The notes under the pieces are model-generated. The model was not told the origin of the DNA, searched no databases, and saw only the letters and a program-made list of their open reading frames with translations. Positions 877 to 18,856 of a stretch of DNA of 25,904 nucleotides are shown one piece after another. The stretch spans positions 1 to 25,904 of the IMG/VR virus record IMGVR_UViG_3300044843_000558; one strand, written 5' to 3'. Position numbers and translations under genes: made by a program. Within the stretch, counting starts at the first letter, position 1; every line of letters begins with the position of its first letter. This DNA is from a virus.

Positions 877-2325
877 CTATTCTGGCGGCACTTCCAGCCT
901 GTAACGCTCTGTCCGGCCATCCTTCATGTGCGCCAAGAACCCAGCATCGACCATTGATTTAACCAATATCCTAGCCTGCCCAGAATCGAGACCACGAACA
1001 TTCTGCACGATTTCACGGACGGTCAGCGGCCCCTTCTGACTGATAAGCTGCATAATCCTGTCTTCCATCGCTACAATTTTCGGCGTTTCTGCTTCGCCAA
1101 CAATTTGGTCATAAAGATTATGCAAGTTGAGTCGCCAGGTCTCTGCGACCTGCTGCGCTCGATGCCAGTGGCGTAGCTCGATGATGTCTTTGCCTTCCAG
1201 GCTGGCAAGCAGCATTGCTACCCGGAGCGCCTTTTCCGGCAACCGGGCATAGTTCCCATCGAGATCCGTTAGACGGCTTTGTGATACAATATCGATAAGA
1301 GCATCGTTGTAGCGGTAATAGGCGTCATAGACCCCATTGCCCATCCTGCAAAGTTGTGGTTGCTTGTGGGTAACAACCGCCTCGTACTTTGCCCCACGGT
1401 CTATCATTTGCACATCGGGAATACCCAACCGCTTGTGCCAGTCGGCAATGGGTTTGACGAGCGCAATAGGTGTGATTCGCTGCTCCTGGGGAAAGCGCTC
1501 GTTTTTTCTGACTGCGTTCAGCGGTGGCGTGACGAAGGCAAAGCGCGCCCAGAAGCCGTCATTCCACAGGGCCGCGCCCCGCTTGGCGTAGGGCTGCAAG
1601 TCAGCCGGCGTTAGATTCGCCAAGAGCGCCAAATAGGGCGAATATACAGTATCGTTGCCACGACCAATGGTTTCGTATTCGTAGGTATCTGGCGTGTCAT
1701 CGAACTTGCGCAGAAGGCTGCGAAAATCGGCCATAAATCCGCCATCGCGCATCATGGCCGACACTTTCTGTCCAAACTCATCAAAGTACCAGCCCTTCTG
1801 GGCAGCAAAGGCCACTTTGCGCTTGCGCTCTTCTTGCTTGTTGCTATCCATGTCGCCATATTCCATCGGGACTTGGTAGGTCATGCTGCGCACAAACGCC
1901 TGTGGCGTAGCGTCATCGGGCGCCAGCATGTGGGTCAGGCCAGCGCATTTTAATATGGCTTGCGCAATTTCCGCCGTTGTCGATTTTGCAAAAACCGACG
2001 TTCGGCTTGCCAGGGCAATATACAAACTCGTAAATCGGCGCTTGCCAAAGTCAATCGTGACACGCCGGGCCGCCACGGTGGACAGAAGCCATATCCCAAC
2101 CGATTCATGAAAATCATCATGGGCGCGCGGTGACCATATCCGGCTAAACGCGATATACTCATCAAGCCAAGCACAAGCCTTTGCGGCCAGAACAGGATCG
2201 TGGCGTGCGGCTTCCGGTAGGCTTGGCATAGCCGCACGTTCTGGCAATGCACGTGATGGCAGCAAATCTTCTGGCGTGTGATAGTTCCCATTTAGCAGTG
2301 TTGACACATGTGTTGACACATCCAC
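877..2325 (-). CDS. DUF3987-like replication ATPase (primase-helicase type) with C-terminal winged helix
   Basis: This 482-aa protein begins at a GTG (2325-2323) with AAGGAG eight bases upstream. The central region resembles DUF3987 proteins, which are phage and mobile-element ATPases linked to replication. There is a P-loop-like stretch at residues ~106-117 (SRTSVFAKSTTA) in which the usual Gly before Lys is Ala, an APDDATPQAF segment at ~135-144, and an acidic WYFDEFGQ motif at ~177-184 that may serve as Walker B. Residues ~415-475 (RIMQLISQKGPLTVREI...ILVKSMVDAGFL) form a winged-helix-like domain. The gene follows the XRE regulator and precedes the inverted-repeat region. Codons 112-124 are the exact source of the mini-array spacer at 3588-3624. 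The family call is by motif; helicase activity is inferred. Confidence 0.75.
   Translation of the reverse strand: MDVSTHVSTLLNGNYHTPEDLLPSRALPERAAMPSLPEAARHDPVLAAKACAWLDEYIAFSRIWSPRAHDDFHESVGIWLLSTVAARRVTIDFGKRRFTSLYIALASRTSVFAKSTTAEIAQAILKCAGLTHMLAPDDATPQAFVRSMTYQVPMEYGDMDSNKQEERKRKVAFAAQKGWYFDEFGQKVSAMMRDGGFMADFRSLLRKFDDTPDTYEYETIGRGNDTVYSPYLALLANLTPADLQPYAKRGAALWNDGFWARFAFVTPPLNAVRKNERFPQEQRITPIALVKPIADWHKRLGIPDVQMIDRGAKYEAVVTHKQPQLCRMGNGVYDAYYRYNDALIDIVSQSRLTDLDGNYARLPEKALRVAMLLASLEGKDIIELRHWHRAQQVAETWRLNLHNLYDQIVGEAETPKIVAMEDRIMQLISQKGPLTVREIVQNVRGLDSGQARILVKSMVDAGFLAHMKDGRTERYRLEVPPE
1956..1992 (-). other. Protospacer: 37-nt exact match to the mini-CRISPR spacer
   Basis: Positions 1956-1992 are identical, in inverted orientation, to 3588-3624. 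The match lies inside the DUF3987 gene and is in frame: it encodes FAKSTTAEIAQA, the P-loop-like region. On the spacer-identical strand the eight bases 5' of the match are CGTCGGTT and the bases 3' are TATTAAAA. Neither resembles the repeat ends that flank the spacer in the array, so under CRISPR self/non-self rules this site would look like a target rather than an array copy. Confidence 0.95.
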
Positions 2326-3547: not shown

Positions 3548-3666
3548 AGGGCCGGAATCAACATCAACCCAGTCGCGGGATTAAAACTTTGCAAAATCGA
3601 CAACGGCGGAAATTGCGCAAGCCAGGGCCGGAATCAACATCAACCCAGTCGCGGGATTAAAACTTT
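3548..3666 (+). CRISPR. Two-repeat, one-spacer CRISPR-like mini-array with a self-matching spacer
   Basis: A 43-bp sequence is present twice without mismatch (3548-3590 and 3624-3666), period 76. Its core runs from GGGCCGGAATC to GGGATTAAAAC (39 bp, 3549-3587 and 3625-3663). The ATTAAAAC end resembles the ATTGAAAC 3' ends of many type I and III CRISPR repeats, and CCCAGTCGCGGG inside it can form a short stem. The spacer is about 37 nt (3588-3624). That whole stretch is an exact inverted match to 1956-1992 in the DUF3987 gene of this same molecule. The TTT after both repeats and the A before both make the repeat/spacer edges uncertain by 1-3 bases. No cas gene, leader or third repeat is visible. 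Mini-arrays in viruses are known (for example in archaeal viruses) and have been linked to inter-virus competition. The direction of transcription is unknown. Confidence 0.75.
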
Positions 3667-3813
3667 CGGGTAATCTCGGTTATTCGGATTCTCGCAACGC
3701 TGGATCATGGCAGCCCATACCGCGTGTTGTGGGTGACGGGATAGGCCATGCCGCCGATTGTTGCCGTGTCGAAGACAGCCGCAACTGAACGTTGAACGGG
3801 ACTGACCTAAAAC
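3640..3813 (-). pseudogene. Remnant of an HNH/zinc-finger-type phage gene, truncated at the CRISPR repeat
   Basis: The minus-strand frame reads VLGQSRSTFSCGCLRHGNN, then HGLSRHPQHAVWAAMIQRC, then ENPNNRDYPK. This matches the widespread phage HNH-associated pattern in which SCGCL is followed by HG.S..P.Y..W..M..RC.NP.N..Y..YGGRGI. The expected NYGGRGI and everything after it are missing: the frame enters the mini-array repeat right after DYP (3667) and stops at 3640. No start codon is present either, because the upstream part is now promoter and operator sequence. It is a decayed fragment, and the repeat lies exactly at its broken end. Confidence 0.65.
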
Positions 3814-3873
3814 GTCATAATCTTGACAACTGCAATACGTTGTGATACTATCATGAAAACATGACGTTTAAGG
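3806..3873. promoter_or_regulatory. Inverted-repeat operator flanking the rightward promoter
   Basis: CCTAAAACGTCAT (3806-3818) and ATGACGTTTAAGG (3861-3873) match as inverted repeats at 12 of 13 positions and bracket the promoter at 3823-3851. The next gene encodes a ribbon-helix-helix protein, so autoregulation is the natural reading. The XRE protein is another candidate binder, since ATGAC is shared with its own putative operator. Confidence 0.65.
3823..3851 (+). promoter_or_regulatory. Strong rightward sigma70-type promoter
   Basis: A perfect -35 TTGACA (3823-3828) is separated by 17 bp from TACTAT (3846-3851). Transcription would start near 3858, about 30 bases before the RHH gene. This is the best promoter in the window and probably drives the whole rightward small-gene cluster. 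Confidence 0.8.
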
Positions 3874-3889: not shown

Positions 3890-4099
3890 GTGGGTGAGAC
3901 AGTATCGTTCCGGTTGGAATCGGCAAATCTTGAAAAATTGCGTGAGATCGCAAGGGCTTGCGGCATTACGCCAAACCGGATGATTAACAAATTGATTGCC
4001 GTGGCCGAACTTACTGAAATTGTAAGCGTTCGTCCGGTCGCCGTGATATGGGTGGGTGAGCATGACCAGCGAGCAGCGCCAGTGGCTACAAGCGGTTGA
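3890..4099 (+). CDS. Ribbon-helix-helix DNA-binding regulator (69 aa)
   Basis: Translation starts at GTG 3890 with GAGGTG just upstream. Residues 3-35 (ETVSFRLESANLEKLREIAR, then the turn and second helix ITPNRMINKLI) form a typical CopG/Arc-type ribbon-helix-helix: a DNA-reading strand followed by two helices. The C-terminal ~30 residues are less conserved-looking and overlap the next gene. It is the first gene after the promoter and operator at 3806-3873, so it probably controls its own operon. Confidence 0.75.
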   Translation: MGETVSFRLESANLEKLREIARACGITPNRMINKLIAVAELTEIVSVRPVAVIWVGEHDQRAAPVATSG

Positions 4100-18805: not shown

Positions 18806-18856
18806 AAGCGGCGGAAGCAACAGAGTGACATCTGTTGCTTCCGCCGCTTTTTCTTT
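18806..18856 (+). terminator. Very strong rho-independent terminator
   Basis: A perfect 19-bp inverted repeat (18806-18824 and 18831-18849) with loop GTGACA is followed by TTTCTTTT. It ends the transcript carrying terminase to tRNA, or processes it, before the scaffold/capsid genes. A weaker hairpin, ATGGTGAGT (18755-18763) with ACTCGCCAT (18787-18795), sits between the tRNA and this terminator. Confidence 0.9.

Follow-up and report, generated by a model that had tools for sequence, protein, structure and literature searches.

Mini-arrays carried by viruses have so far been found to target related viruses, with the carrier's own version of the site mutated or deleted (PMC6858448), and according to a modelling paper a carrier would be inactivated by a spacer identical to its own sequence (PMC7099407). 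Those of SPV1, SPV2 and phages contain one or two spacers between host-type repeats, lack cas genes and have their spacers aimed at a viral gene close by; the ones in bacterial phages are also without leaders. Whether leaderless, stand-alone repeats accept spacers was stated as unclear in that work (PMC6858448). Racr and other solitary repeat units consist of a single host-type repeat with a diverged 5' handle, found between phage genes and unaccompanied by cas genes. Among host systems, type I-D recognizes a GTN or GTH PAM (its Cascade structure was solved with GTT), uses spacers of 35 plus or minus 5-6 nt and makes a crRNA whose 5' handle is the last 8 nt of the repeat (PMC10212523).

The locus described here is laid out like the phage mini-arrays, with one spacer, host-type repeats, a viral target gene nearby, no leader and no cas gene found among the window proteins scanned. 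It differs from them in that the carrier is itself a perfect target with an adjacent PAM, and no other virus matching the spacer was found. It likewise resembles the Racr-like units in its host-type repeat, intergenic position, lack of cas hits and diverged handle, but it has two identical repeats and a genuine spacer. On the one contig in which it was observed, the perfect self-match is an exception to the published avoidance by virus mini-arrays.

A one-spacer array that copies a piece of the phage's own replication gene

The analysed sequence (the window) spans an entire linear virus record of 25,904 bp, possibly a phage fragment, in which terminase, portal and tape-measure genes are present. 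Two identical repeats of sequence GGGCCGGAATCAACATCAACCCAGTCGCGGGATTAAAAC, 76 nt apart, enclose a single spacer that is the reverse complement of a segment of a replication gene in the same record, with 37/37 bases matching. This confirms the self-match first noticed in a sequence-only reading, as no such match arose in 100 shuffles even when up to 3 mismatches were tolerated. The two repeats and the spacer form a tiny CRISPR unit, the layout of which is given in Table 1.

Table 1. Layout of the array, its self protospacer and the adjoining genes in the window.
Feature	Position	Strand	Description
CRISPR-like repeat copy 1	3549..3587	+	39 nt; 37-nt type I-D-like core at 3551-3587 plus GG
Single spacer, 37 nt	3588..3624	+	identical over its full length to 1956-1992 read on the minus strand
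CRISPR-like repeat copy 2	3625..3663	+	identical to copy 1
Self protospacer	1956..1992	-	codons 112-124 of the DUF3987 protein, FAKSTTAEIAQA
GTT directly 5' of the protospacer	1993..1995	-	seen in the sequence; type I-D PAM (GTN/GTH; PAM from PMC10212523)
DUF3987 protein	877..2325	-	predicted MCM-like AAA+ fold, probable replication helicase
HNH-endonuclease-like gene fragment	3667..3792	-	homology ends at the edge of repeat copy 2

The flanks of the array were inspected for the elements expected of a host array. The 200 nt upstream are 41% AT, in place of the AT-rich leader with a promoter found in type I-D, and have no similarity to array-flanking DNA; no promoter-like site was detected near the array on either strand. 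None of the 10 window proteins scanned, the array neighbours included, matched a cas gene, on a contig that is possibly incomplete. The HNH fragment on the right is truncated at both ends, and the window lacks its C-terminal half. A second spacer in the right flank was considered and is weakened by the length of the HNH homology, which at 126 nt is well beyond that of a spacer.

Several other elements were recorded in the window. An inverted repeat (AACGTCAT / ATGACGTTTA) surrounds a TTGACA-TACTAT promoter-like site at 3811-3870, upstream of a small ribbon-helix-helix-like ORF (3890-4099), and looks like an autoregulated operator. A tandem 14-nt repeat of 2.4 copies, ACAGGAGTGAAGGG, lies at 2873-2905, immediately upstream of the ORF at 2907. 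Between structural genes, at 18806-18849, there is a perfect 19-nt inverted repeat with a 6-nt loop, a possible terminator.

The target gene and the reach of the spacer

The protospacer lies in frame in its ORF and encodes FAKSTTAEIAQA plus one base. The protein matches the Pfam family DUF3987 and PHROG primase families, and the sequence-only reading had placed the site on P-loop codons. Lysine 114 is invariant in an alignment with six Chloroflexota homologues and conserved to 90% or more in a set of 13 sequences drawn from the window and viral contigs. An AlphaFold model (mean pLDDT 83.5) surrounds K114 with a strand at 102-106, a loop and a helix at 111-127. The best structural neighbours of the model are MCM helicase ATPase domains (Z of 18-20), with an rmsd of 3-5 A over 255-290 residues in nearly all comparisons. 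The Walker A motif of MCM proteins is typically A-K-S, not G-K-S, and the predicted AAA+ fold with an AKS-type Walker A would agree with an MCM-type helicase. The P-loop assignment is thus borne out by K114 conservation in two alignments, by the strand-loop-helix model and by an MCM-type fold at Z ~19, and the predicted identity can be made more specific, namely an MCM-like AAA+ replication ATPase that may be the phage's replicative helicase. Downstream of the gene, the AT-rich segment at 683-872 contains nested imperfect inverted repeats (46 nt at 83%, 25 nt at 92%) and is possibly a replication origin or terminator.

It had also been proposed that the spacer would match related phages, given the site it copies. 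This expectation was not upheld: across 25 homologous DUF3987 sites, some of them near-duplicates, at most 23/37 bases are shared, and none of the viral contigs searched has a coding sequence that closely matches. The reach of this spacer would therefore be limited to very close relatives.

Homologues of the DUF3987 protein were found in 14/301 Chloroflexota genomes, the best at 48% identity, and in 0/244 cyanobacterial genomes. One Chloroflexota genome (G376) contains a prophage whose genes from terminase to tape measure are colinear with those of the window, with identities of roughly 30-50%. These homologues and this prophage, combined with the repeat family described below, make a member of the Chloroflexota the likely host.

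Repeat family, reading direction and PAM

Exact and near matches to the repeat were absent from the viral contigs, genomes, phages and plasmids, and no host array with exactly this repeat was found. The family was recovered only by a degenerate double-repeat scan, which in both Chloroflexota and cyanobacteria returned 37-nt repeats containing AACCC-N6-GGGATTGAAAC. Among the arrays in Chloroflexota, two, from Anaerolineae and Caldilineaceae (L028, L046), are linked to type I-D genes: L028 adjoins Cas1d, Cas3d, Cas4d, Cas5d and Cas6d, and L046 adjoins Cas1d and Cas7d. The 37-nt core of the phage repeat has AACCC-N6-GGGATT at the same hairpin position as in these two arrays, and it is up to 28/37 identical to the repeats of L021, L030 and L049. 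At 37 nt, the phage spacer has the length expected of type I-D and falls in the 35-38 nt range of 59/63 Chloroflexota spacers. The phage array thus shares repeat architecture, spacer length and GTN PAM with L028 and L046, and differs from them in having no leader, no adjacent cas genes that could be found, a single spacer and the 8-nt tag ATTAAAAC for ATTGAAAC. The deviating tag is present in both copies. The deviating base is a G in 1112/1114 cellular repeats and an A, as in the phage, in only 2/1114, and ATTAAAAC is not the consensus tag of any array collected. When 1062 spacers from arrays with similar repeats were compared with the window, only short chance matches resulted.

No repeat like that of the phage was found in the 13 viral contigs that encode DUF3987 relatives. 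A 24-nt direct repeat with the same 76-nt spacing does occur beside a DUF3987 gene at L140:8340-8439, near AACTGAAGA iterations, and was rejected as iteron-like, not CRISPR-like.

The alignment with type I-D repeats also points to a reading direction. Since ATTGAAAC is the 3' end of the aligned repeats, and the last 8 nt become the crRNA 5' handle, the array probably reads rightward; the guide would then equal the DUF3987 mRNA strand and could pair with DNA only. Of the two orientations that the sequence-only reading had left conditional, this favours the first. If the array were transcribed and processed in this direction, a 72-nt crRNA would begin AUUAAAAC-UUUGCAAAAUCG. A type III reading was set aside because the guide equals the mRNA strand and the matching repeats adjoin I-D genes.

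The protospacer is preceded by GTT, and a GTN precedes only 5.6% of positions in this genome. As GTT is a canonical I-D PAM, the target is licensed; the refuting condition named in the sequence-only reading, a required PAM that is absent here, accordingly fails. The spacer copy inside the array is preceded by AAC and so is not itself a target. Between the 8-nt flank of the protospacer, CGTCGGTT, and the repeat end, ATTAAAAC, 1/8 positions match, and the proposal that tag-based self protection would not spare the site accordingly stands. In a host with an active type I-D system, expression of the guide should lead to cleavage of the phage's own DNA. Recovery of the genome implies a silent or mis-tagged array, interference that is absent or blocked, or a contig that does not represent a single molecule.

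Two rival explanations assign the array a role of its own. The first is that the transcribed repeats act as an RNA decoy, as in Racr, occupying host Cas proteins while the content of the spacer is incidental. Solitary CRISPR-inhibiting repeats are widespread in phages, and RacrIF1 stays largely active despite 8-nt handle changes (PMC10651486); a decoy would explain survival of the self-target and is compatible with acquisition of the spacer in place. We nevertheless consider it improbable, as there are two repeats instead of a solitary one, no promoter was found and the repeat hairpin is predicted to be weak. The second, in which the crRNA serves to act on the phage's own helicase gene, controlling copy number or lysogeny, or to attack competing phages, appears very improbable. 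The PAM and seed are intact, the target looks essential, and published viral mini-array spacers target nearby genes (PMC6858448), but a full match with a PAM should cut and not regulate, relatives share at most 23/37 bases at the site, and known virus-borne spacers are accompanied by escape changes in the carrier (PMC6858448).

Origin of the array

The explanation that we favour, tentatively and at somewhat less than even confidence, is that adaptation proteins of a host type I-D system captured the phage's own DNA in place, at a leaderless, diverged repeat. A type I-D-like repeat without leader or cas genes would be carried into a Chloroflexota host at infection, where host Cas1-Cas2-Cas4 would take a GTT-flanked 37-nt piece of the replication-helicase gene. 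Insertion at the phage repeat would duplicate the repeat together with two neighbouring bases and leave an array with a single spacer, from which, given transcription and processing, a crRNA would lead the host I-D Cascade and nuclease to cut phage DNA. Since the genome has persisted, such interference probably does not act on it; it may fail because the array is silent, the tag diverged, or the host effector absent or inhibited.

Besides the perfect match, the I-D-like repeat architecture and the Chloroflexota relatives, several observations argue for acquisition in place: the source is flanked by GTT, the length is the canonical 37 nt, and the duplicated unit is 39 nt and includes GG, compared with host repeats of 37 nt. 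The protospacer continues with TA where the duplicated unit has GG, although the bases that precede the 37-nt host repeats are not conserved. The rare tag base A occurs in both copies, and thus one repeat was probably made from the other. This use of the GG would fail if the true host repeat were 39 nt. Both repeats are followed by TTT. In the Caldilineaceae L046 array (G007), TTT starts 7/41 spacers where 0.6 is expected, and across all arrays collected it starts 57/1062, possibly through an extended PAM preference or slippage; given the enrichment at Caldilineaceae I-D spacer starts, TTT at the start of the phage spacer is unremarkable. Against acquisition in place are the lack of a recognisable leader or promoter, the lack of a host array with the exact repeat, the restriction to a single contig, and the HNH homology, which stops exactly at the repeat edge as it would at a recombination or assembly junction.

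That last observation bears on two further explanations. The record could be an assembly chimera, in which phage DNA was joined to a stretch of host array targeting the phage, or a composite of two strains, one bearing the array and the other retaining an intact protospacer. A host array spacer aimed at its phage would be ordinary, and no relative was found that spans both the left (DUF3987) and the right (FtsK to tail) modules; the 13 viral contigs with DUF3987 share no right-hand module. Such an assembly would, however, require two jumps through identities of roughly 37 nt. A PAM would be expected in the left flank, but there is no GTN at spacer distance (lengths 28-47), and on the right five HNH homologues have TAT where a GTN needs TAC, that is, ATA. 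Composition is continuous across the array, with the left part fitting the right part, and the protospacer lacks the GG seen at the spacer end. We therefore regard a chimera or composite as unlikely. Alternatively, a ready-made repeat-spacer-repeat could have been captured from a host array by recombination, its self-match reflecting host spacers that targeted this phage. Recombination with host arrays has been proposed for leaderless phage mini-arrays (PMC6858448), and the array abuts a broken HNH gene. The GG before both repeats would arise by chance about 1/16 of the time and is absent from the protospacer, and the tag ATTAAAAC has no counterpart among host consensus tags; capture from a host seems somewhat less likely than a chimera or composite.

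Barring a misassembled record or a guide that is never put to use, the phage seems to carry the guide to its own destruction. If the contig is correct, it represents a natural case in which a viral repeat without a leader took up a spacer and the phage survived with a licensed self-target. A further reading, plausible but less likely than not, is that the leaderless phage repeat was a live landing site for host type I-D adaptation, that it recorded the phage's own DNA and that the phage survives the resulting PAM-licensed self-targeting guide, either because repeat RNA or another phage factor disarms I-D interference or because the guide limits the phage's own replication. A correct contig would suggest that the phage, or the state of its host, blocks type I-D interference.
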